Origin: Candidatus Gastranaerophilales bacterium
GTDB taxonomy: Bacteria; Cyanobacteriota; Vampirovibrionia; Gastranaerophilales; Gastranaerophilaceae
DNA length: 64,000 nt
Direction of reading: 5' to 3'
Assembly: GCA_944324225.1 (NCBI GenBank)
Contig: CALUVL010000010.1
Coordinates: 1 to 64,000 of the forward strand
Each line of letters begins with the position of its first letter. Position 1 is the first letter of the stretch. Below, piece after piece: positions 15,083 to 31,935 of the stretch. The notes under the pieces were generated by a model. That model made no database searches. It saw only the letters and a program-made list of their open reading frames with translations, and had not been told where the DNA came from. A program made the position numbers and the translations under genes.

Positions 15083-15745
15083 CTAAGTCTGCAAATTTTT
15101 CTTAAAAAAATTAATAATATCTTGAACAGATTCAGCGCACAAAACAGGCTTGTATTCTTTCATGTCCTCTTTTAACTTAAACCCGAACCCGTAAGTTACA
15201 CCTATAAAATCAATTCCTGTTTCTTTGGCTGCTTTGCCGTCATGAATACTATCGCCAATTAAAACAACTTCCTCTTTTTCTTTAGTTAAATTCTTAATAC
15301 AGCTTTGCAAAATATCCGTTTTAGTTAATCTGTTATCATTATCTGCTCCACATATCGTATCAAAATATTTGTCTAAGCCAAAATGCTTCATCAAGTCGAT
15401 TGCGTAATCTTCACGTTTATTAGTTGCAATGGCCTGCAATATTTGCCGGCATTTTAAATATTCCAGTATATCAACTACTCCATCGTAAACCTCGGCCTTA
15501 AATAAATCTTTCGTCTTATAATGATCTCGGAAAATGTCAGCAGCAGCTTGTGCAGATTTTTTATCCATATTAAAGTGAGTAATAAAATTTGTCTGCGGAG
15601 CCGGACCTATATATGACGCAAGTTCCTTGTCAGTCTTATTTTCCAAATTAAGCTTATTTATAGTGTACCGGTATGAAGATACCAATCCCTCCATTGAATT
15701 AATCAGAGTTCCGTCGATATCCCATATTACTGTAGAATAGTTCAT
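15083..15745 (-). CDS. HAD-superfamily phosphatase (Gph/PGP-like)
   Basis: 220 aa. Motif I DIDGTLIN at 9-16 (D9 nucleophile, D11), a helical cap, motif II ATNK near 108-111, and motif III/IV with GDSIHDGKAA. It starts inside the stop of the aldolase gene (ATGA overlap) and is the last gene of the polysaccharide operon. The context suggests dephosphorylation of a sugar-phosphate intermediate, perhaps the aldolase product before CMP activation. The fold is also used by phosphoglycolate phosphatases, so the substrate is an inference. Confidence 0.85.
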   Translation of the reverse strand: MNYSTVIWDIDGTLINSMEGLVSSYRYTINKLNLENKTDKELASYIGPAPQTNFITHFNMDKKSAQAAADIFRDHYKTKDLFKAEVYDGVVDILEYLKCRQILQAIATNKREDYAIDLMKHFGLDKYFDTICGADNDNRLTKTDILQSCIKNLTKEKEEVVLIGDSIHDGKAAKETGIDFIGVTYGFGFKLKEDMKEYKPVLCAESVQDIINFFKKNLQT

Positions 15746-17322
15746 TCATTTTCTCCATATAAAGATTTTGTGATGAAATTAATTTCAATATTTTTCTTAA
15801 ATTTAGAAAAAATATTTTTCATAATTTCATTGTAATTTTCATTTTCTGATACATTAGCCATACTTACCAGATTTTCAGCAAAATAATTTTCGACCGGAAT
15901 ATTGCTAAAACCGTCCATTCCTGCAAAATAAACTCTTTTTACTCCGAGTTTAATTAACAATTTCAATAACATTAGTGCAACATTATCAAACATTTTTGAG
16001 TCATTTAAATATGCTGAATAATTGATAATTTTTATATTATCGCCGCATGCGGAAATATTAGAAGAAATTATTACAGGTATTGAAGTTTTATCTAATGATA
16101 AAAATCTTTTTATATTTGTTATAAAAGCCATGTCAATTTTATAATTTTCTGGTATAAAATTTAAAGCGAAAATAAACGGGTTGTGTTCTTTTATGAATGT
16201 ATCAATTTCTGCTTTCTGTGATGTTATTGATTTCCCGGGCGCCAGTAATAAAATAGTTTTATCTTTAATAGCATCCTGTATATACTTTAAAGTATTAGAA
16301 TCATTTGTTTTTGAGTGAAATTTATCCAGATAAACCTGTCTTATAAACTTTTCATCGTAAGTTGTTCTTTTTTCATTAGGAAGGGTTTCTAATATATCAT
16401 TGATAATTTCAACCGGAACAGTTTGTTTATCAACAAGATATCTTGCATAATTCGGATGACAATGATTTGTTGCTGCAAGATAATAAGGAACCGAATATCC
16501 CCATGGTGTCTGGGTAAATATAGGATTTGTATATTCATCAACAATTTTTAAAATAGGTATAATATTGTAAGTGCCATTATAATTATCATTAATATATTTG
16601 GTCAACAATTCTGTGCATAAATTACCTGCACCTCGCCCCATGCCAAAAACTGTTGAATCTATAATGAGTTCTCTTTTATTGCAAACTTTCATAAGAATTT
16701 GTGCATTTGAAAATGATAACTGCAAGTTGTTATGAGAGTGAAATCCTAATTGAATATTTTGTTTCAGATTGTTATTAATTATATAGTATAACCTCAAAAT
16801 ATCATTTTCTTTTAAGATGCCTTTTGTGTCAACGATAGAAAAAGCATATGGATTTAAGTTATTTACCTTTTTTAGGAGTTCAATTAATTCTGAATCTGAA
16901 TAGCTGTCAATGTTAGTAGGATTTACAAATACTTTATAGCCAAAGTCCTTTATCTTTTTCAAAAATTTAAAAACCTTATCAATTTCATGTTTTTTAAAAG
17001 TCACTCTAATAGCATCAAGTGCTATATTAGCACTTTTTTTGACAAGTTTATTGGGCGAAAATTCCCCGAACATAATCATTGCAACAACCATTTCCGGTTT
17101 GTTACTTGTTGATGGGAAAAACTTATTTAATTCTTCAATTCTGTTAAACACCGTTTTGTCAATATTATATTCACAGTCCTTTAAAAACCCGCATTCAACA
17201 TAATCAACTTTAGAGATTTCGAGATTATGTAAAATTTGAGAAATACCCTTTTCTCCAAAATTCCAGCTATTTACATATCCACCGTCACGCAGTGTGCAAT
17301 CTAAAACTTTTATATTTTTCAT
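15742..17322 (-). CDS. HMGL-type aldolase fused to a sialyltransferase-like Rossmann domain
   Basis: 526 aa. Residues 1-330 form a DRE-TIM metallolyase: LDCTLRDGG at 7-15 supplies the Arg/Asp pair, and LGFHSHNNL near 196-204 the metal-binding His residues. This is the fold of HMG-CoA lyase and 4-hydroxy-2-oxovalerate aldolase. Residues about 350-526 are a second domain beginning LLLAPGKSI and containing VKRVYFAGMDGFS, resembling the GT42/DUF115 nucleotide-sugar fold. It lies between a CMP-sugar synthetase-like gene and a HAD phosphatase, with ATGA overlaps on both sides. By inference it makes a keto-acid sugar by carbon-carbon bond formation. Confidence 0.75.
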   Translation of the reverse strand: MKNIKVLDCTLRDGGYVNSWNFGEKGISQILHNLEISKVDYVECGFLKDCEYNIDKTVFNRIEELNKFFPSTSNKPEMVVAMIMFGEFSPNKLVKKSANIALDAIRVTFKKHEIDKVFKFLKKIKDFGYKVFVNPTNIDSYSDSELIELLKKVNNLNPYAFSIVDTKGILKENDILRLYYIINNNLKQNIQLGFHSHNNLQLSFSNAQILMKVCNKRELIIDSTVFGMGRGAGNLCTELLTKYINDNYNGTYNIIPILKIVDEYTNPIFTQTPWGYSVPYYLAATNHCHPNYARYLVDKQTVPVEIINDILETLPNEKRTTYDEKFIRQVYLDKFHSKTNDSNTLKYIQDAIKDKTILLLAPGKSITSQKAEIDTFIKEHNPFIFALNFIPENYKIDMAFITNIKRFLSLDKTSIPVIISSNISACGDNIKIINYSAYLNDSKMFDNVALMLLKLLIKLGVKRVYFAGMDGFSNIPVENYFAENLVSMANVSENENYNEIMKNIFSKFKKNIEINFITKSLYGENE

Positions 17323-18098
17323 TTTATCCTTTCATTTTTGATTGTATTAATAATATTTTTTGAGATTATTTCATGAACTTTTTCTAAATCCTTACACGTA
17401 TCAACCGATATTGATTTTGAATTAACCTCTACAAAATATAAATTTTTATTTGCTTCAATAAATCTCAGATGGTCTATGTCTTCCACCTTTTCTAATAATC
17501 CCATATCACAAGAAACAAAAAAATCTAAAGCAGCTTTTGTAAAACACTCTATTCCTACATATTTTTTATATTTAAAATTTAAAGAATTTTTAGGATAAGG
17601 AATAGGAGTTCGCGAAAGATAAACACAACGAAAATATTTATTTTGACTATTATCTGTAACAATTTTTATATTTGCTGAATCAATTGTTTCAGCAGGATCT
17701 GCCAAATATCTAAACGCACCTGTAAAAAAATCATTTTGATTTACAATTGCACTTTCTATTACTTTTGCAATTGACTCAACTTCAATGAGAGGTTCATCAC
17801 CATTCACACAAAGATAATAATCCGACTTAACTTTATTTGAAACCTCATGAACTCTATGAATATGAGTCGGATGATTGTTTGACGTCATTAAGACATTCAT
17901 ACCATATTTTTTACATGCTAATTCAATTCGTTCATCATCAGTTGCAACATAAATCTCTGCAAACTGTTTTACTTTTTTAACCTGATTATATACCCACCAT
18001 ATCATAGGTTTTCCACATATATCCATTAATGGTTTCCCCGGTAACCTTGATGAACTATATCTAGCTGGTATTATTCCTATTATTTTTCTATCTTGCAT
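17319..18098 (-). CDS. KdsB-like cytidylyltransferase with altered substrate motif
   Basis: The 259 aa product has the CMP-sugar synthetase core: IPARYSSSRLPGKPL at the N-terminus, ATDDERI, and NGDEPLI for the metal site. CMP-Kdo synthetase carries HxSGTDR for sugar binding, but here the site reads HPTHIHR, so the sugar is probably not ordinary Kdo. ATG 18098 is preferred over the upstream TTG 18110. It has GAGGTGG with 3-6 nt spacing and leaves 9 nt after the previous stop. It should activate the keto-acid sugar with CTP for transfer to LPS or capsule. Confidence 0.82.
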   Translation of the reverse strand: MQDRKIIGIIPARYSSSRLPGKPLMDICGKPMIWWVYNQVKKVKQFAEIYVATDDERIELACKKYGMNVLMTSNNHPTHIHRVHEVSNKVKSDYYLCVNGDEPLIEVESIAKVIESAIVNQNDFFTGAFRYLADPAETIDSANIKIVTDNSQNKYFRCVYLSRTPIPYPKNSLNFKYKKYVGIECFTKAALDFFVSCDMGLLEKVEDIDHLRFIEANKNLYFVEVNSKSISVDTCKDLEKVHEIISKNIINTIKNERIK

Positions 18099-18106
18099 TC
18101 TCCACC

Positions 18107-20269
18107 TCAAACTTTCAAAACTAAATCGTCCAAATTCCGCATATCCAGCACTTCATAGTCTCCATTTTTAAATAATTGAGGATTCGCATCTATATACTCT
18201 TGCGTATAAACATCTTTAAACAATCCCTTAAGCCCTACAGGATTGATTGATACAATCTCTGTATCCGGATAATATGTTTCAGCATAAACTTTTAATTTTT
18301 GCCAGTATTTTACAAGATAAGATAAATTATGATTTTTTATATTTTGGTTTACAGAACCATCAAAATAGCCGCCGGAAGAACAATCGCATCCAACTAAATA
18401 AACACGTTTTGGATTTGTATATAGCGCAAATTGTGTTGCAGGAAATGCTACCGATCCAAAATCCATAAGTCCGCAAAACTCTAAATATGGATAATTAATG
18501 TTTCTAGCATAATCTGAATAATAATGTTTTATTTTAGGATTATTTAAATATTTTTCAGGAATTGTGCATTTATTAATCCAAGATATCATATTGTTTTCCA
18601 AGTATGAACCTGCAAAAATTTCAGCAGGGTAGCTTATAATTTCATCATAATAATTTTTTACAGAAAGGTAATCTTGAATAAATATGTAATCCAGCTTAAG
18701 TTTATAATTTTGAAAAGCTTTATTTACACCGATATGAATAATTCCCGGAATTGGTTCATAATAAGCCATTGAAGGACCGCATGCCACAATTACAACATCT
18801 TTTCCTTCATTGCAACCTTTATACTTCGGGAAAATTTTTGAATGCTGTTCTCTAATAATATTAGATGCAAAGACTTCATTCGAAATATATTGTTTCAATA
18901 TATTGGATTGCTTATTTAATTCTGCAGAAATAAACTCTTTTATTTCACTGCTTAAATAAAGATTATTGCTAAAACTCTTTGATGATTTCTGTTTAACTTT
19001 AAATTTTATTGAAATTCCCAAAAATCGTATGACTTTAAATTTTACTGAACCTTTATATGAATTTCCGATAAAAAAGATTTTATTTAAACATTTTTTTACA
19101 TAAGAACTGACTTTTTTATCTTTTGAAATTTTTATTCTTAAACCTAAGATATTAAAAATTTTATGTTTTTTGATTTTATCGTTCTTAACTGAGAATATTT
19201 TTTGATAGTGAATCTGTATTTTTATTCCGAGTAAATTTAAAACAAAACAAGGGTTTTCATTTCTAAAAATCTTTAAACTTAAAAATTTATTTCTTAAATC
19301 TATATATGGATAATTAAGTTGTTTTATTTTCCAAAAACGATTTTGGCAAATCCAATTTACCTCTTTAATATTATACATCTTTTTTGAATTAGATTCAAAG
19401 AATATTTTTAGTCTTTCTAAGCACATTTTTTGATTCTCTACTGACATAAATTTAATAGGATATAAGATATCTCTTAAATAGATATTTAAGAGGTATCCAT
19501 CATACTGAGCATTATTTTTTTCTAAATCAATACAAACCTCATTTAATTGTTTTAACAATGTCTCAAAAATATACAAAGCATTATTTGAAACATTATATTT
19601 TGAACAAGCTGAATTTGGGCATAATAAATAATTATACAAATTAATATTGATAAAATAGATAATTTTAATATTTAATAAACATTTACGTAAAAATAAAGAA
19701 TCTTCTGCAAAGTCATAATTACTAAATCTTATATGATACCGTTTTATCAAATCTGATTTAAATAATATACGCCACAAAGTACCATTTATTTTTTTTAGGA
19801 TTTCTAATGTCAGAGATTGTTTTCCTGAAAATTGATATGTTCGCCAATTTACCTGCGTCTGATACTCTTTTTCGCTGCAATTTCTTTCGTTAATTACATT
19901 AACACCCCAGCTGACAAGGTCAATTTCCGGATCTTTTAGAAACTCTGCAACTGCAAGCTCATAGCACTGTGGTTCTAACCAGTCATCAGAATCTACAAAG
20001 GCTATATACTCACCTGTTGCAATATCAAGTCCACGGTTTCTAGCAGCAGAAACGCCTGCATTTTCCTGATGGATTACGATTATACGAGAATCTTTCTGTG
20101 CATATTCGTCTAGAATAGCACCACTGTTATCAGGAGAACCGTCATCAACACATATTATCTCTAAATTCGCATATGTTTGATTTATTACGCTATCCAAACA
20201 TTTTCTTAAATACTTTTCTACTTTATATACCGGTATAATTACTGTTATTTTTGGAGTCTTCTCTTCCAT
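18107..20269 (-). CDS. Two-domain glycosyltransferase: GT2 plus sialyltransferase-like domain
   Basis: 720 aa. Residues 7-230 are a GT2/GT-A domain (ITVIIPVYKVEKYLRKCLDS, FVDSDDW as the DxD region). A basic, Ile/Lys-rich middle follows. Residues about 480-720 start VVIVACGPSM and contain FGSVAFPATQFA and KRVYLVGCDCS, the pattern of GT42/DUF115 transferases that use CMP-sugars. One chain could therefore add two sugars in succession. Its ATG overlaps the preceding stop as TAATG, implying translational coupling. The GT2 part is secure and the C-terminal reading is by recalled similarity. Confidence 0.8.
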   Translation of the reverse strand: MEEKTPKITVIIPVYKVEKYLRKCLDSVINQTYANLEIICVDDGSPDNSGAILDEYAQKDSRIIVIHQENAGVSAARNRGLDIATGEYIAFVDSDDWLEPQCYELAVAEFLKDPEIDLVSWGVNVINERNCSEKEYQTQVNWRTYQFSGKQSLTLEILKKINGTLWRILFKSDLIKRYHIRFSNYDFAEDSLFLRKCLLNIKIIYFININLYNYLLCPNSACSKYNVSNNALYIFETLLKQLNEVCIDLEKNNAQYDGYLLNIYLRDILYPIKFMSVENQKMCLERLKIFFESNSKKMYNIKEVNWICQNRFWKIKQLNYPYIDLRNKFLSLKIFRNENPCFVLNLLGIKIQIHYQKIFSVKNDKIKKHKIFNILGLRIKISKDKKVSSYVKKCLNKIFFIGNSYKGSVKFKVIRFLGISIKFKVKQKSSKSFSNNLYLSSEIKEFISAELNKQSNILKQYISNEVFASNIIREQHSKIFPKYKGCNEGKDVVIVACGPSMAYYEPIPGIIHIGVNKAFQNYKLKLDYIFIQDYLSVKNYYDEIISYPAEIFAGSYLENNMISWINKCTIPEKYLNNPKIKHYYSDYARNINYPYLEFCGLMDFGSVAFPATQFALYTNPKRVYLVGCDCSSGGYFDGSVNQNIKNHNLSYLVKYWQKLKVYAETYYPDTEIVSINPVGLKGLFKDVYTQEYIDANPQLFKNGDYEVLDMRNLDDLVLKV

Positions 20270-21348
20270 TATCTAACCTTTCTAAACCTGAATGAAAATT
20301 TAATTCCTAAAATATGTAAAACATACTGATTCTTCTTGTGTTTATAAAAAACACCTAAAAATTTATTTCCAAAAATCCAAACAGGAGTATCAAAAACGTA
20401 TGCAAGCGCCTCTTTTGTTTTACTGTCATGCAAAAGTTCGACCAGTACAGATTCTGAAAAATAAGGATACAATATATCTGCAACCTTTATTGCTTGTGTT
20501 AAAACCTTAGATTTATTGCATTCTCCTGTATAGGTGTAGTCAAATCTCAAATATCGTTCTAATTTAAATAAAACAAATTTTTTCTTATTTAATAATATAT
20601 TCTTATTTTCATAATATAAACAAATAAATTCCAGATTTTTTAGATGCGCCGCAACCACATCCGATTGCTTTGCTTTGATTTTTTCAAAGCCGGAATTTTT
20701 TCGCTGAACATAGTTATAAAAATATTTGTTTATATAATAAGCATATCTGCAATTTACAACATATGTATAGAAAAAAGAATTATCTTCAAGTTCTATAGCT
20801 ACTGGAAACTTAACATTATTATTCTTAATTACGCTGGTTTTAAACATCTTATTCCATACGCAAACATTAGTTTTTAAAACAATATCAGTATTAAGCTCTT
20901 GTTTTCCTACTAGTTGTATTTTGTGATATCCTATTTGACCTTTTATATAATCCGAATTTTTATCAACATCCAAAGGTACAATATTAGCTCCCCAGCAAAC
21001 TAAATCTATTTCAGAATCTCTTTCAAATTCAGCAACAGCCAATTCATAACACTGAGGTTCCACCCAATCATCCGAATCAACAAAAGTTATATATGGAGCA
21101 GTTGCTACATACATACCGGCATTTCTTGCACTGGAGAGGCAGCCATGCTCTATATTTACAACTTTAATTCTTCTGTCATTTCGGGCAAATCGGTCAATTA
21201 TTTGCAGGCAGGAATCTGTTGAGCCATTGTTTACACAAATTATTTCAATATCTTTAAGCGTCTGGTTAACAAGACTCTCCAAACATTTTTTAAGATATTT
21301 TTCTGTATTCCAAATTGGTATAACTACTGAAACCTTTGGTGTTGTCAT
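20269..21348 (-). CDS. Family 2 glycosyltransferase
   Basis: 359 aa. A GT-A domain at the N-terminus has VSVVIPIWNTEKYLKKCLES and FVDSDDW, followed by a variable acceptor region and a basic C-terminus. The start is ATG 21348, which overlaps the rfbG stop as TAATG. The frame is open to 21363 but only within rfbG. Its first 150 residues are close to those of the following gene, including the AVAEFExDxEIDLVxWG segment, so the two GT2 domains arose by duplication. The likely role is side-chain sugar addition on a lipid-linked oligosaccharide at the inner membrane. Confidence 0.9.
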   Translation of the reverse strand: MTTPKVSVVIPIWNTEKYLKKCLESLVNQTLKDIEIICVNNGSTDSCLQIIDRFARNDRRIKVVNIEHGCLSSARNAGMYVATAPYITFVDSDDWVEPQCYELAVAEFERDSEIDLVCWGANIVPLDVDKNSDYIKGQIGYHKIQLVGKQELNTDIVLKTNVCVWNKMFKTSVIKNNNVKFPVAIELEDNSFFYTYVVNCRYAYYINKYFYNYVQRKNSGFEKIKAKQSDVVAAHLKNLEFICLYYENKNILLNKKKFVLFKLERYLRFDYTYTGECNKSKVLTQAIKVADILYPYFSESVLVELLHDSKTKEALAYVFDTPVWIFGNKFLGVFYKHKKNQYVLHILGIKFSFRFRKVR

Positions 21349-22445
21349 TACTTTTTTTCCCATAGATACCCTTTATTGGTGTGTGCCTTAATCTGTTTAA
21401 CACAATAATCGAACATGTCATTTGAGTGCAGGGCTTCTTTGTACCAATCCACTGTAAATTCGATTGCTTCTTTGAGGTTTAGCATCGCCTTCCACTGGAG
21501 CATTCTGTATGCTTTTGTTACATCCAGACTCAAGAGCGTATTTTCATGAACCATTTCTTCACCTGATACATCTACAACTTTTCCCCTGCCGTAGTATTTA
21601 ACAAGGTATTCAACAACTTCCCAAACTGTTTTGTTGCATTCTATCGGAGGCCCGAAGTTGAATCCTTCTGCGTATTTTACAGGATCTTCCATTAACTTCT
21701 GTCCGACTCTTAAGTATCCGCTCAGTGGTTCCATTACGTGTTCCCACGGACGTGTTGCCTTCGGACTTCTGATTTCTATGTCCTTGCCTTCTTCAATAAA
21801 TCTTATACAGTCAGGAATAAGTCTATTGTCTGACCAGTCGCCGCCTCCGATGACGTTGCCGGCACGAACAGATGCTATTGCTTTGCCGTGTTTTGCATAG
21901 TCTTTCGGGTTGAAGTAAGAGTTTCTGTAAGATGAAATCATAAGTTCTGCACACCCTTTTGAGGATGAATACGGATCGTAGCCGCCCATTCTGTCAGTTT
22001 CTTTGTAGCCCCAGATTTGTTCTACGTTTTCGTAGCATTTGTCTGATGTTATCATTACTACTGTCTTTATACAGTCAAATTTTCTGACCGCTTCAAGAAT
22101 ATTTAATGAACCTATAACGTTTGTTTCGTATGTATATTTCGGATCTGCATAAGCAGTTCTTACAAGCGCCTGTGCTGCAAGATGGAAAACAACTTCCGGC
22201 TGATACTTTGCTATAGTTTCTTCCAGCTTTTCGCTGTCACGCACATCTCCTTTAACATCTGCAAATAAATGTTTTTCAAGGTGTGAGGCTTTGTAATTCC
22301 CGCGTTCACTGTATGGCTCAAGTGCATAACCTACAACTTTTGCTCCCAGCATTGTAAGCCAGATTGAAAGCCAGCTCCCTTTAAAGCCTGTGTGACCTGT
22401 TACCAGAATTGTTTTTCCTGCATAAACATTGTTAAAGTTTGACAT
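21348..22445 (-). CDS. rfbG: CDP-glucose 4,6-dehydratase
   Basis: An SDR enzyme making CDP-4-keto-6-deoxyglucose. The NAD motif TGHTGFKGSWL and Y-x3-K in the YDPYSSSKGCAEL segment are present, and the 365 aa length is normal. ATG 22445 (MSNFNN) has AAGGA upstream and overlaps the previous gene by 14 nt. With rfbF it gives the first two steps of CDP-dideoxyhexose synthesis. The next enzyme of the classical route, the C3 dehydrase RfbH, is not in the window. Confidence 0.93.
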   Translation of the reverse strand: MSNFNNVYAGKTILVTGHTGFKGSWLSIWLTMLGAKVVGYALEPYSERGNYKASHLEKHLFADVKGDVRDSEKLEETIAKYQPEVVFHLAAQALVRTAYADPKYTYETNVIGSLNILEAVRKFDCIKTVVMITSDKCYENVEQIWGYKETDRMGGYDPYSSSKGCAELMISSYRNSYFNPKDYAKHGKAIASVRAGNVIGGGDWSDNRLIPDCIRFIEEGKDIEIRSPKATRPWEHVMEPLSGYLRVGQKLMEDPVKYAEGFNFGPPIECNKTVWEVVEYLVKYYGRGKVVDVSGEEMVHENTLLSLDVTKAYRMLQWKAMLNLKEAIEFTVDWYKEALHSNDMFDYCVKQIKAHTNKGYLWEKK

Positions 22446-23334
22446 AAGTTTTTTCCTTTCCAAGAGCAATTACTTCTTCCAATGCCTGTTTAATTGTGTA
22501 TTTAGGCACCCAGCCTATTTCATTCACGAGACGGGAATTGTTTCCGACAACAAATTTATATTGATCACTCATTTGTTCATTAAATACTACGAGATTTTCT
22601 TTTCCAATTAAGCGTGCAATTGTTAGCACATAGTCTTTAATACTGGTCGCTTTCCCTGTTGAAACATTAAAAATTCCGTTTTTATCAGAATCAAGAATTT
22701 CAACGAATGCACAGGCAACATCTTTTGAATAAATATAATCCCGAATAAGGCTTCCACTTCTAATTTCTACTATTTTATTGTTCAACAGAGAACTAATAAC
22801 GTCACCTGTTAATCGTCTTAAGTCTTTTTCAAATCCAAAAGCAGAGAAAATTCTTCCCCATGCGAAATCAATGTTGTTCTGCGCACAGTAAAGCTCTGCG
22901 ATTTCTCTTAAATAATTTTTGCATTTCCCGTAAACATGCTGAGGTTCAAGCAGGCTTGTATATTCATTTAACAACTCCTTACTTTCTGCATACTCAACGT
23001 AAGTCCCTGCTATAACAACTTTTTTACCACCGTGTTGTTTAAAAGATTTTAAGAGTTCAATTGAAGCGGTAAGAAAATCGAAGTTAATATTGTCATTAAA
23101 CATTCCTGTTGTCTGCCACGCAAGATGTAATAAATGCGTTGGTTTTATTTCAGCAATAAGGTTATCCATTGCTGCGTAATCAAATAGATTTCCCTGGACC
23201 CAGTTAATTTTATCACTTTGTACAATATCGCCTGTGGTAAGAGCATATACCTTATAGCCTTTATTAAAAAGCGGCTTTAAAGTTTCTTTTCCGATAAGTC
23301 CTTTTGCCCCGGTTACGAATACTTTTTTAGTCAT
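22432..23334 (-). CDS. NAD-dependent epimerase/reductase (SDR), second copy
   Basis: About 300 aa from ATG 23334 (MTKKVFVTGAKGLIGKE). The Rossmann motif GAKGLIG, catalytic T in GTYVEY and Y-x3-K as YGKCK are present. It is a paralogue of the neighbouring upstream SDR: both share HLAW, AQNNIDF/KQNNIDF and R-x-F segments. It probably reduces or epimerises the 4-keto group of the CDP-6-deoxy sugar, as RfbJ/RfbS/RfbE-type enzymes do. Which sugar results cannot be read from sequence. It overlaps the upstream gene by 8 nt. Confidence 0.85.
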   Translation of the reverse strand: MTKKVFVTGAKGLIGKETLKPLFNKGYKVYALTTGDIVQSDKINWVQGNLFDYAAMDNLIAEIKPTHLLHLAWQTTGMFNDNINFDFLTASIELLKSFKQHGGKKVVIAGTYVEYAESKELLNEYTSLLEPQHVYGKCKNYLREIAELYCAQNNIDFAWGRIFSAFGFEKDLRRLTGDVISSLLNNKIVEIRSGSLIRDYIYSKDVACAFVEILDSDKNGIFNVSTGKATSIKDYVLTIARLIGKENLVVFNEQMSDQYKFVVGNNSRLVNEIGWVPKYTIKQALEEVIALGKEKTYVKL

Positions 23335-24235
23335 TAATATGCTCCTTCCACCAGTCAATGCACTGCTTCAGACCTTCTTCAAGAGTGAATGCCGGCTTCC
23401 AATTTAGTTCTTGTGATAGTTTTGTTGCATCCCCAACAACAATTGGCTCTTCAAAGCCGCTCGGGATTGCACCGTACAAAATTTTTCCCTGATAATTCGT
23501 CAATTCTTTGATTTTTTCTACAATTGTTTTTAATCTTACAGGCTCACCCGAACAAATATTTAGCGCATCTGAAATACTGCTTTCAAAGAATTTAACAAGT
23601 GCATCCGAAACATCCTCCACATGTAAGTAGTCTTGAAACTTTAGACAGTCGCTGACTTTAACATCTTCACCTTTTAACATTGAGGTTATAACATAAGGCA
23701 TCAGCCGCTGAGGACGTTCATATTGACCGTAAAGGTTAAAAATTCTTGCCCATTTGAAATCAATATTATTTTGTTTGCAGTAAGCTTTTGCAATAGTGTA
23801 TAGAGCAGCTTTGGATTTGCCGTAAAGTGATTTGTTATTAAGCGGAGTAAGATTTTCCTTAAAGTAGCCGTATTCGAAATCATATTCTGAAATACTGCCT
23901 GCAATTAAAATTTTTTTTCCACTGTTTTCACAGAAATGTTTTATGAGCTCTATAGATGCTGCAACCCAGTCTATATTACTATTATGGGTATGGCATTTAG
24001 CATCCCCGTACCACGCCAGATGAATTAAATTTTCATACTTACTAGCAGAGATTAATTCTTTTATCGCCTGAGAATCCAGCAAATCAACTGTTATTATATC
24101 AAGATTTTTATGCGTAAAACCGATTTCGTGCTGGAAATTAACTCCGGTAACATTGTATCCTTTTGATATTAAATCTTTAACTAGCTGCTTTCCTATAAAA
24201 CCGGAAGCGCCTGTCACAAGCACTCTCTCATTCAT
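23327..24235 (-). CDS. NAD-dependent epimerase/reductase (SDR), first copy
   Basis: 302 aa with GASGFIG at the N-terminus, S in GSISEY and the catalytic pair in YGKSK. It starts 2 nt after the rfbF stop and so is translationally coupled to it. It is a tandem paralogue of the next gene. The two may carry out successive steps on the CDP-4-keto-6-deoxy sugar, or serve two different branch products. The substrate is unknown. Confidence 0.87.
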   Translation of the reverse strand: MNERVLVTGASGFIGKQLVKDLISKGYNVTGVNFQHEIGFTHKNLDIITVDLLDSQAIKELISASKYENLIHLAWYGDAKCHTHNSNIDWVAASIELIKHFCENSGKKILIAGSISEYDFEYGYFKENLTPLNNKSLYGKSKAALYTIAKAYCKQNNIDFKWARIFNLYGQYERPQRLMPYVITSMLKGEDVKVSDCLKFQDYLHVEDVSDALVKFFESSISDALNICSGEPVRLKTIVEKIKELTNYQGKILYGAIPSGFEEPIVVGDATKLSQELNWKPAFTLEEGLKQCIDWWKEHIND

Positions 24236-24237
24236 CC

Positions 24238-25053
24238 CTAAACAACTCCCGCAAGACTTACATACGCATTCTGCTTATCCCAGACTTTCCACGGTGCCTG
24301 TTTTGTAGCCCACATTTCATCAAGCTCTATCTTATCTCTCAAGGTATCCATAGGCCTCCAGAAGCCGTGATGCTTATACGCTACAAGCCCTCCATGGTTT
24401 GCAATTGTCTCAAGCGGTCTGCGCTCAAAAATTTCGTTTTCATTCCCTTCTTCTATATAGTTGAACACTTCCGGTTCACATACAAAAAATCCGCCGTTTA
24501 TCCAGGCACCGTCGCCTTTAGGTTTCTCTTTGAAGGACGTTATTGTGCCGTCTTCTGCGATGTTTAGAGCCCCAAACCTTCCCGATGGCTGAACTGATGT
24601 CATTGTCATTATTCTTTTGTGCGAATTGTGGAAATCTACAAGTTCTTTGATATTCACATCTGCAACACCATCGCCGTATGTTAGCAGAAACTGTTCATCG
24701 CCTACATAATCCTGTGCTTTTTTAATTCTGGCGCCGGTCATTGCATTCTGACCGGTGTAAAGCATTGTGACCTTCCACGGTTCCGTGCGCATTTTGTGAA
24801 GTTCGATTGTGTTGTCGCGCATATCTATGGTTAAGTCTGAATATCTCTGGTAATAATGCACAAAGTAATCTTTTATTATATGTGACTTATATCCGGTCAA
24901 AATTACAAAATCATTAAAGCCGTAGTGAGAATAAATCTTCATTATATGCCACAGAATCGGATACCCGCCGATTTCTACCATCGGCTTCGGTTTTGTGCCC
25001 GTTTCCTCGCCCAATCTCGTGCCTAGGCCACCTGCTAATATTAGTACCTTCAT
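24238..25053 (-). CDS. rfbF: Glucose-1-phosphate cytidylyltransferase
   Basis: Makes CDP-glucose from CTP and glucose-1-phosphate. The N-terminus KVLILAGGLGTRLGEETGTK and the PKPMVEIGG segment are diagnostic of RfbF rather than RmlA or GalU. From ATG 25053 the product is 271 aa. An alternative ATG at 25071 adds six residues and has GAGG nearby, but family starts favour 25053. It begins 24 nt after the recombinase gene, so that recombinase appears to be the first gene of the sugar operon. Confidence 0.93.
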   Translation of the reverse strand: MKVLILAGGLGTRLGEETGTKPKPMVEIGGYPILWHIMKIYSHYGFNDFVILTGYKSHIIKDYFVHYYQRYSDLTIDMRDNTIELHKMRTEPWKVTMLYTGQNAMTGARIKKAQDYVGDEQFLLTYGDGVADVNIKELVDFHNSHKRIMTMTSVQPSGRFGALNIAEDGTITSFKEKPKGDGAWINGGFFVCEPEVFNYIEEGNENEIFERRPLETIANHGGLVAYKHHGFWRPMDTLRDKIELDEMWATKQAPWKVWDKQNAYVSLAGVV

Positions 25054-25077
25054 TAACTCTTTATACCTCATATACCT

Positions 25078-25605
25078 CTACAAATTTATTCCTGACTTAA
25101 ATCTTGCACTGATTGATTCTTGAACATCAATATAACTCATTGTCTGCGCTGCCGACTGATGTCCGAAATACCATTGCAAAAATGTCAGATCTTTATATTT
25201 CTCGTAATAGTGATATCCGAAAGTTTTTCTCCATGATTCTGCTGACACATCAGAAAATCCAAGCTCCTCGCATACTGTTTTAAAATTCTGGTATGCCGAA
25301 TGACGGCCTAAACGTTTTCCGAAAACTGATGTAAACAAAGGTTCAGAAGCTTTTTTGTTTTCCGTAACTTTGTCTATGAGATTTTGAATTTTGTCCGGCA
25401 AAATATACTCGGCACCTGTTTTCAATTTCAAAGATTTTTTATTTTTAACGTCTTTTACGTCAAGATTTAAAAGATTTACAACTTTCATGCCTGTATTTAT
25501 TGCCAGTTCAAAAAGAAGTAAATCCCTGTCGTTACCTGAGCGCCGGTAGTATGTTTTTATCTGGTTTATTAAATTTTTATCTTTAATCGGTACAGTTTTT
25601 GTCAT
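25078..25605 (-). CDS. FimB/FimE-sized tyrosine recombinase, catalytic set incomplete
   Basis: 175 aa, catalytic domain only, as in FimB/FimE (about 200 aa). It aligns with the recombinase at 25848-26387 through RDLLLF, SVF..RL and RKTFGYH. R126, H149 and Y158 (SYID) of the catalytic set are kept. The first Arg (NTGLR in relatives) is K41 and the HxxR His is E123. It may be inactive, act as a helper, or use altered chemistry. It sits directly between the inverted-repeat element and rfbF, the first gene in the operon direction. Only a weak AAGG precedes the ATG. Confidence 0.85.
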   Translation of the reverse strand: MTKTVPIKDKNLINQIKTYYRRSGNDRDLLLFELAINTGMKVVNLLNLDVKDVKNKKSLKLKTGAEYILPDKIQNLIDKVTENKKASEPLFTSVFGKRLGRHSAYQNFKTVCEELGFSDVSAESWRKTFGYHYYEKYKDLTFLQWYFGHQSAAQTMSYIDVQESISARFKSGINL

Positions 25606-25641
25606 GCCTTAATAATTTTCAATATCTAAAGTATCGACACA

Positions 25642-25663
25642 CCACACAATATGCATTGTGTGG
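25642..25663. repeat. Left inverted repeat of the putative invertible segment
   Basis: Two 9 bp arms, CCACACAAT and ATTGTGTGG, surround a 4 bp spacer ATGC. The 20 bp at 25644-25663 is the exact reverse complement of 25787-25806. The element lies 37 bp upstream of the recombinase ATG at 25605. It looks like a crossover site with two recombinase-binding half sites. Confidence 0.85.
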
Positions 25664-25786
25664 CTTTTATTAAATTAACCTCTTATTTGGATATTATCAT
25701 AAACAAAAATAAAGAATATTACTTTGTTAAAATTTGTAATATTTAAAATCAGTTTTATCAGCAATATAAGGTCAATACAGCGTACA
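25664..25786. promoter_or_regulatory. Putative invertible AT-rich promoter segment
   Basis: 123 bp between inverted repeats, very AT-rich and without a reading frame. A weak minus-strand promoter is possible (TTGCTG at 25764-25759, 17 bp, TATTAC at 25741-25736), and TATGATAAT lies nearby. On the plus strand no good -35/-10 pair is apparent. Inversion would switch whichever promoter it carries towards or away from the recombinase-rfbF operon. Orientation control is inferred from layout only. Confidence 0.5.
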
Positions 25787-25808
25787 CCACACAATGCATA
25801 TTGTGTAT
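25787..25808. repeat. Right inverted repeat of the putative invertible segment
   Basis: CCACACAAT, spacer GCAT, then ATTGTGT (25787-25806); the outer GG of the second arm is replaced by AT. The central spacer is the reverse complement of the one in the left repeat, so the two sites point in opposite directions, as inversion requires. Confidence 0.85.
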
Positions 25809-25847
25809 AAAAAAATCACCAAATTTTATATTTATTTTTAATTTTGT

Positions 25848-26387
25848 CTACAAAATAAAATTTCTGTAACTTTCATCAATGTGGTCTTGTTCAATACCAA
25901 TATAACGCAATGTTATTTGCGGAGAAGAGTGATTAAATATTTTTTGCAAAATAGCCACGTCTTTAAACTGCTTATAATGATGATAGCCAAATGTTTTTCT
26001 TAATGTATGGGTACCTATTCTTTCGTCCAAACCTGCACACCTGCAGGCATTTTTTATTATGTGATACGCTCTAAACCTATCCAGTCTGTTTTGAAATACA
26101 CTTTGAAAAAGAGGTGCATCCGAATCTTTTCCGATTATATATTCTTCAAGCATTGGCTTTAACTTTGAATTAAGCGGAATTTTTTTAAACTTTCCTGTTT
26201 TCTTTTCTATTAATGTGATATAATTTTTATTCCGCACATCACTGATATTAAGAGAGATTATGTCGGATATTCTAAGTCCGCAATTTGTTCCTATCGTAAA
26301 TAGTAATAAATCTCTTTTATTTTTTGATAAAATATTTTCTACTTTTTTAATATCTTTTTTGTTGCGTATAGGTTCCACTACATTCAT
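25848..26387 (-). CDS. FimB/FimE-sized tyrosine recombinase with full catalytic set
   Basis: 179 aa, catalytic domain only, with no N-terminal core-binding domain. All expected residues are visible: R39 (NCGLRISD), the Lys of the beta hairpin (EKKTGK), H127-x-x-R130 (THTLRKTF), H153 (FNHSS) and nucleophile Y162 (LRYIG). AAGGAG lies 7 nt before the ATG. FimB/FimE-type enzymes invert short promoter segments such as fimS. Here the gene ends 40 bp from the right inverted repeat. It is the best candidate for the enzyme that flips the 123 bp segment. Confidence 0.92.
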   Translation of the reverse strand: MNVVEPIRNKKDIKKVENILSKNKRDLLLFTIGTNCGLRISDIISLNISDVRNKNYITLIEKKTGKFKKIPLNSKLKPMLEEYIIGKDSDAPLFQSVFQNRLDRFRAYHIIKNACRCAGLDERIGTHTLRKTFGYHHYKQFKDVAILQKIFNHSSPQITLRYIGIEQDHIDESYRNFIL

Positions 26388-31019: not shown

Positions 31020-31138
31020 ACTCTGCTATGCAAAATGATTGAGTATCATTTGGCAAGAGGTAACCAAGGACATCAAAATCCGAAGAATTTTGATTCCTTT
31101 GCCATTTATTTTTAAAAGGACTCCTAATACAAAAAATA

Positions 31139-31211
31139 TGCCGCAACTCGGAATTGAACCAAGGACACAGGGATTTTCAGTCCCTTGCTCTACCAACTGA
31201 GCTATTGCGGC
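31139..31211 (-). tRNA. tRNA-Phe (GAA)
   Basis: 73 nt cloverleaf: acceptor GCCGCAA with TTGCGGC, D arm GCTCAGTTGGTAGAGC, anticodon loop CTGAAAA with GAA, T loop GGTTCAATTCC. The 3' CCA is not encoded. Confidence 0.95.
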
Positions 31212-31395
31212 ATATTTTTTTGATTTTCACGAGAGGTTTACTCTCTATACATATCAGATATTCAATAATATCCTGATTCTTCTACACTTTCACTCTTCTG
31301 AGAAATTAATGATGGCTCATTTGCCACGTTCTTTATTGTATCCGCTCAAAGTTTAAAGTCAAGAACTTTTTCTTTTACAAAATCTCAATAAGAGC

Positions 31396-31935
31396 TTAAC
31401 CAGCATGCGGCGCTAAATAGAATGTTACATTACGGCCTTCCATCATGGGTTTTTTCTCTATTGTAAGAGGCACATCTTTCAAATCTTCCATAAAGCGGTT
31501 TGCAAGATCAAACGCAAGGTTTGAATGTTGCATTTCACGGCCACGCATCATTATTACAACCTTAACCTTGTTGCCCTGCGCTATAAATTTTTGAATACTT
31601 TTAATTCTTACCTGATAGTCATGGGTATCTATTTTGTATCTTATTTTAACTTCTTTTACTTCTACTGTATGTTGTTTTTTCTTAGCTTCTTTTGCTTTTT
31701 TATCAAGCTCATACTTATATTTACCGTAATTTAAAATCTTTGCAACCGGAGGAACCTGATTAGGGCTGATTAAAACTAAATCCAAATCAGCCTCATAAGC
31801 CATTTTTAAAGCTTTTACAGTTTCAACAACTCCGAGATTTTCTCCGTTTTGATCAATTAATCGTACTTCTTTGGCCCTTATTCTTTCGTTCATTATGGCC
31901 TGATTTTTGTCCTTTTGTCTAGTGTCGTTTGCGAT
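31396..31935 (-). CDS. infC: Translation initiation factor IF-3, probable AUC start
   Basis: IF-3 keeps ribosomal subunits apart and checks the start codon. The sequence from NERIRAKEVRLIDQNGENLG to MMEGRNVTFYLAPHAG is typical in both domains. The first ATG (31893) has no ribosome binding site. Reading further back in frame, ATC at 31935-31933 stands 8 nt after AAGGAG and gives 14 extra residues (MANDTRQKDKNQAI) of the usual IF-3 N-terminal kind, for 179 aa. An AUU/AUC start is the known self-regulation device of infC. The usual partners rpmI and rplT do not follow; tRNA-Phe comes next. Confidence 0.93.
   Translation of the reverse strand: MANDTRQKDKNQAIMNERIRAKEVRLIDQNGENLGVVETVKALKMAYEADLDLVLISPNQVPPVAKILNYGKYKYELDKKAKEAKKKQHTVEVKEVKIRYKIDTHDYQVRIKSIQKFIAQGNKVKVVIMMRGREMQHSNLAFDLANRFMEDLKDVPLTIEKKPMMEGRNVTFYLAPHAG

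Follow-up and report, generated by a model that had tools for sequence, protein, structure and literature searches.

Does the short segment that lies between two small recombinase genes in this Ca. Gastranaerophilales genome act as a promoter that can be inverted, and what would each of the two recombinases contribute? The Ca. Gastranaerophilales are gut relatives of the cyanobacteria and are known mainly from metagenome assemblies. We analysed a stretch of 64,000 nucleotides (referred to here as the window), for which an earlier sequence-only reading had proposed two recombinases of FimB/FimE size and an invertible promoter in front of a surface-polysaccharide operon. We give a probability of roughly 0.87 to the conclusion that the locus switches a surface-sugar operon by means of an invertible promoter, as a member of a family of similar switches among Ca. 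Gastranaerophilales.

The two open reading frames, here called rec1 and rec2, were found at the lengths given by the sequence-only reading, and both match the Pfam Phage_integrase family (Table 1). Between these minus-strand genes sits a 163-bp element composed of a core and two terminal repeats. As had been claimed, the 20-bp ends are exact inverted copies of each other, 123 bp apart, and their central spacers, ATGC and GCAT, are inverted between the two copies. The 9-bp arms ascribed to the repeats are present in the left copy (CCACACAAT-ATGC-ATTGTGTGG, 25642-25663), whereas the right copy has matching arms of 7 bp because its outer end reads AT; the unit common to both is therefore 20 bp. 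When arms up to 400 bp apart are considered, this pair is the longest exact inverted repeat in the 64 kb, and the longest obtained by chance measured 16 bp in dinucleotide shuffles of the window (n = 20) and 13 bp in shuffles of the intergenic region (n = 500). The 20-bp repeats are genuine and far exceed what chance produces. No other copy of the motif ACACAATNNNNATTGTGT occurs anywhere in the 1.93-Mb genome. Elsewhere in the window, a 16-bp exact inverted repeat (AAAAAATATGCCGCAA, 31131-31220) lies downstream of an infC-like gene (31396-31893).

The sugar genes described by the sequence-only reading are present behind the segment and rec1, all in one direction. The surface-sugar operon (15083-25071) consists of nine minus-strand genes that overlap or are separated by a few bases.

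Table 1. Positions in the window of the switch components and of the genes behind them.
Feature	Position	Strand	Remarks
rec2	25848..26387	-	179 aa; single-domain tyrosine recombinase; Pfam PF00589, 3e-26
Inverted repeat adjoining rec2	25787..25806	.	20 bp; CCACACAATGCATATTGTGT; inversion breakpoint in G004
Invertible core	25664..25786	.	123 bp; first 57 bp (25664-25720) identical in the inverted G004 copy
Extended -10 promoter-like motif	25691..25699	-	TGATAATAT; 47 bp from segment end; directed toward rec1 and the operon
Inverted repeat adjoining rec1	25644..25663	.	20 bp; ACACAATATGCATTGTGTGG; with 25642-25643, a 9-4-9 near-palindrome
rec1	25078..25605	-	175 aa; tyrosine-recombinase fold; first operon gene; ArgI to Lys, HxxR His to Glu
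rfbF	24238-25071	-	
Epimerase	23327-24235	-	
Epimerase	22432-23358	-	
rfbG	21348-22469	-	
GT2 glycosyltransferase	20269-21363	-	
GT2 glycosyltransferase	18107-20269	-	
KdsB-like cytidylyltransferase	17319-18110	-	
HMGL-like protein	15742-17322	-	
HAD phosphatase	15083-15745	-	

Evidence that the element inverts came from comparison with other assemblies, which had been proposed as a check on the promoter claim and which showed that the segment is flipped in G004 and not fixed across genomes. In this genome of the same genus, positions 25644-25720 of the window are found in the opposite orientation at the orthologous place, with 100% identity over 77 bp. The inverted stretch starts at the first base of the repeat, after a rec2 gene of 89% DNA identity, and its 57 unique core bases are unchanged although the synonymous divergence of rec2 between the two genomes reaches dS = 0.70. 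The G004 contig stops inside the segment, exactly 77 bp past the repeat start, with one breakpoint visible, at the repeat. This location at a contig end, and the terminator-like score on the plus strand of the hairpin formed by the left repeat with its T-run, would also fit a transcription terminator or simple hairpin, the flipped G004 copy then being an artefact of assembly at a palindrome. However, like inversions lie inside contigs, with both flanks present: 187 bp are inverted between a module on contig C3 of this genome and its counterpart in G003 (flanks 99.6-100% identical), 319 bp between a module on contig C19 and G064 (flanks 100% identical) and 189 bp between loci L061 and L063 (flanks 99.8-100% identical). 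Moreover, the same architecture is found elsewhere around repeats that are quite unlike these, and we consider the artefact the most remote of the explanations weighed here.

Most of these orientation comparisons are between species, and the two orientations could thus represent fixed species differences produced by rare inversions on an evolutionary time scale, without phase variation. The near identity of the flanks around the inverted copies speaks against this explanation, as do the places where contigs end. The contigs of L155, L046 and L056 stop, like that of G004, exactly 77 bp past the repeat start (placed by eye for L056), while the L081 contig stops on the last repeat base, and the 77-mer that ends at this base also opens the contig of L175. 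Such contig ends are what a fork in a k = 77 assembly graph would produce if both orientations were among the reads, which suggests that the two coexist within single samples, that of G004 included. In a crude count, contig ends near the recombinase numbered 10 versus 1 within 150 bp and 14 versus 7 within 700 bp (p = 0.19); this asymmetry is only mild, and the information lies in the exact 77-bp offsets. Fixed species differences therefore appear very improbable.

A generic sigma-70 scan of the segments gave no enrichment over shuffles, and a de novo search among sense-strand hexamers upstream of genes yielded a signal too weak to define a promoter. The hits of the generic scan nevertheless prompted a positional test for an extended -10 element. 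At 40-59 bp from the segment end, the motif TGnTAnnnT was observed 38 times in 53 non-redundant segments, against about 5 expected, and alignment of the sites gives T(A/G)TGnTAnnAT, which is the extended -10 element in its classical form. Of 55 segments, 41 carry the motif at one end only, 1 carries it at both ends and 13 at neither. In the pairs L061/L063 and L011/L156, its directions are opposite within each pair, as expected. Judged from its motif, we infer that TGATAATAT is a working promoter, and the window would accordingly be in the ON orientation, with the motif toward the operon, and G004 in the OFF orientation. The inversion in G004, the recurring architecture and a promoter-like motif at a fixed place support the proposal of an invertible promoter controlling the sugar operon. 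A TTAAYAAA-like element also recurs in the segments; it lies some 26-31 bp upstream of that motif, too far away to serve as a -35 box, and is possibly a binding site for a regulator or for the recombinase.

The locus is not isolated. Six more relatives of rec1, rec2 included, are encoded in this genome at E < 1e-14, and in four other places (two on contig C19, one on C3 and one on C2) a recombinase gene is followed by a repeat-bounded segment, behind which lie sugar-transfer genes, genes for autotransporter-like proteins or small genes. We surveyed inverted repeats at 80 loci retrieved with rec2 alone as query. The best inverted repeat within 600 bp downstream of the recombinase far exceeded those found upstream and in shuffles (66 versus 74 loci, p ~1e-14). 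The same architecture was found in about 50 other loci, and it is inverted in several. The first gene behind the segment is on the same strand in 43 of 44 loci, and glycosyltransferases, Stealth proteins, UDP-galactopyranose mutase and sugar dehydratases predominate among these first genes. Since the repeat sequences vary from module to module, the switches probably have separate specificities.

Some of the modules of this genome have particular neighbours. On C2 (L012:6596-11398), the recombinase is followed by a 1600-aa autotransporter-like protein, a candidate phase-variable surface protein, and the inverted repeats there measure only about 11 bp (CAAAATAAGTA). The switch region on C3 (L014, G000:C3:47000-59000) adjoins a Mu-like phage transposase and ATPase, and that on C19 (L011, G000:C19:28000-39142) adjoins Mu-like phage head and tail genes, as if these two modules were carried or moved by phages.

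Which enzyme would invert the segment? In the alignment, rec2 keeps the full catalytic set R...HxxR...H...Y; its dN/dS is 0.04 against G004, and it is probably the inverting enzyme. In G007, a genome of the same genus, the unit of rec1, switch and operon is kept without an adjacent rec2. The two repeats there share a new sequence, having changed jointly; the rec2 orthologue is located elsewhere, adjoining creD and switchless (L154, L159). This arrangement indicates that the inverting enzyme can work at a distance or be exchanged for another, and thus that rec2 need not be dedicated to the neighbouring switch.

The description of the pair as FimB/FimE-like holds in that both are tyrosine recombinases of that size, but a full active site is found only in rec2. 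Moreover, membership in the FimB/FimE group was rejected: identities are 23-29%, the scores of 36 and 34 bits fall far below the NCBIfam cut-offs for tyrosine-type DNA invertases (221-222), and FimB/FimE stand apart in the tree, with a branch length of 5.8. The small phage integrases of PHROG 216 match both proteins (6e-36 and 1.5e-60), and viral contigs, many of them from isolate genomes, commonly encode single-domain recombinases with 42-53% identity to rec2 (IMG/VR loci L188-L260), which suggests a phage origin. Relatives of rec1 at E <= 1e-20 were limited to the Ca. Gastranaerophilales family among the 194 genomes of the class that were searched. The recombinases of the window belong to a phage-integrase-like family that, within the class genomes searched, is seen only in this Ca. 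Gastranaerophilales family.

The other recombinase, rec1, which the sequence-only reading had likewise compared with FimB and FimE, lacks the catalytic His and ArgI and is probably a regulator. Together with its relatives, rec1 forms one clade (support 100/100) that is unchanged after removal of the catalytic columns. None of the 18 distinct members has the HxxR His and 16 lack ArgI, the second His is replaced by Gln in 14 and the Tyr by Phe in 9, while ArgII is present throughout; the catalytic Lys may be kept, in a hairpin that is shorter. The other 113 distinct recombinases retain ArgI, the HxxR box and the Tyr. When the set is extended to 28 loci, among which one is probably a duplicate, the His is lost in all and ArgI in 26. 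Purifying selection on the protein is nonetheless strong (dN/dS = 0.038 in comparison with G007), and its structural model, which is confident (mean pLDDT 87), resembles those of XerA, XerH and Cre. In 19 of the 28 loci, rec1 is closely preceded by an inverted-repeat segment, and the genes downstream, examined at 18 loci by eye from the protein starts, are mostly for nucleotide-sugar synthesis and glycosyltransferases. Thus, rec1 is apparently enzymatically dead yet conserved, and it is probably a regulator rather than a second invertase.

Could rec1 still recombine DNA by an altered chemistry, the two enzymes setting the orientation as FimB and FimE do? The fim-like layout of the two genes would suit this explanation, and the alignment shows that rec1 of the window itself retains ArgII, the second His and the Tyr. 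However, the loss of the His throughout its clade and of ArgI nearly throughout, with Phe for the nucleophilic Tyr in about half of the members, makes it improbable. In addition, ArgI mutants of Cre and Flp retain site binding and synapsis while recombination is lost (PMC4381057). As these mutants still bind their sites, a dead relative can in principle occupy recombination sites or form mixed complexes.

We propose the following working model. Rec2, or a sister recombinase in the same genome, would recombine the two 20-bp sites and thereby flip the 163-bp element. In the ON state, as in the window, the extended -10 promoter would face rec1 and the nine sugar genes; in the OFF state, as in G004, it would face back toward rec2. 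Because rec1 is the first gene behind the switch, its synthesis is expected to be confined to the ON state, and it is from this expectation that we infer a feedback role: rec1 would bind the same kind of site and bias or hold the orientation. We give this feedback role a little less than an even chance. More tentatively still, the proteins of the rec1 clade might serve as a memory of the switch, binding the sites of recombination, by themselves or in complexes shared with the active enzyme, and either locking the operon ON or keeping the other switches of the genome from turning on, such that one sugar coat would be made at a time. The ratio of ON to OFF orientations was 10:6 in loci with rec1 versus 10:21 in those without (p = 0.065); this association is not significant, and the holding role of rec1 is therefore without statistical support so far.

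Alternatively, rec1 could be a plain transcription factor for which the palindromic repeats are operators, with autoregulation and no effect on inversion. Each repeat is nearly palindromic and adjoins the promoter, the rec1 gene lies directly behind, and the catalytic residues are dispensable in the rec1 clade, all of which would agree with this role. On the other hand, the clade retains the recombinase fold and ArgII, for which a pure repressor has no obvious need. We regard this alternative as unlikely, if far from negligible, and retain feedback on the switch as the tentative role of rec1. A dead recombinase behind a switch is a candidate for feedback control of DNA inversion.

The locus resembles E. 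coli fimS (FimB/FimE), hyxS and ipuS in its small single-domain tyrosine recombinases, its short element and its short inverted repeats, and in these systems a promoter within the element controls surface structures, as is proposed for the window; the target is an autotransporter in the case of ipuS (PMC6083910). It differs from fimS in having a 163-bp element with 20-bp near-palindromic repeats and a second recombinase that is degenerate and located behind the switch, inside the controlled operon. The sequence-only reading knew of no comparable switch in this lineage; in agreement with it, we found no invertible promoters of Ca. Gastranaerophilales in the open-access literature, outside which most subscription journals lie, and within the same literature no paper dealt with pseudoenzymes together with tyrosine recombinases. 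We regard as the new element an apparently dead recombinase relative under the probable control of the switch, a combination that we did not find described in the open-access literature.

In Bacteroides, invertible promoters of polysaccharides and outer-membrane proteins are turned by the serine invertase Mpi and by Tsr tyrosine recombinases; there are many switches per genome, polysaccharide operons are among their targets, and a regulatory gene, upxY, comes first in the operon. A serine invertase of the Mpi type is excluded here, as both proteins of the window are tyrosine recombinases. The Ca. Gastranaerophilales switches differ from those of Bacteroides in their recombinases and in their promoter motif, and the first gene of the operon encodes a recombinase look-alike here and a NusG-like antiterminator there. 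With a family of promoter switches acting on autotransporter-like proteins as well as surface sugars, these bacteria would vary their surface much as Bacteroides does, but with different enzymes.

The members of PHROG 216 are phage genes, whereas their relatives described here are found at chromosomal switches. Finally, the locus is similar to the gut invertons detected by PhaseFinder and its successors (e.g. PMC11892184), where promoter invertons occur near surface genes and invertases; the text of that survey contains no cyanobacterial or melainabacterial entry. The invertase genes of the survey are mostly placed beyond the control of the inverton, with one group as a possible exception (PMC11892184), whereas in Ca. 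Gastranaerophilales an apparently dead relative of the invertase is probably under the control of the switch.
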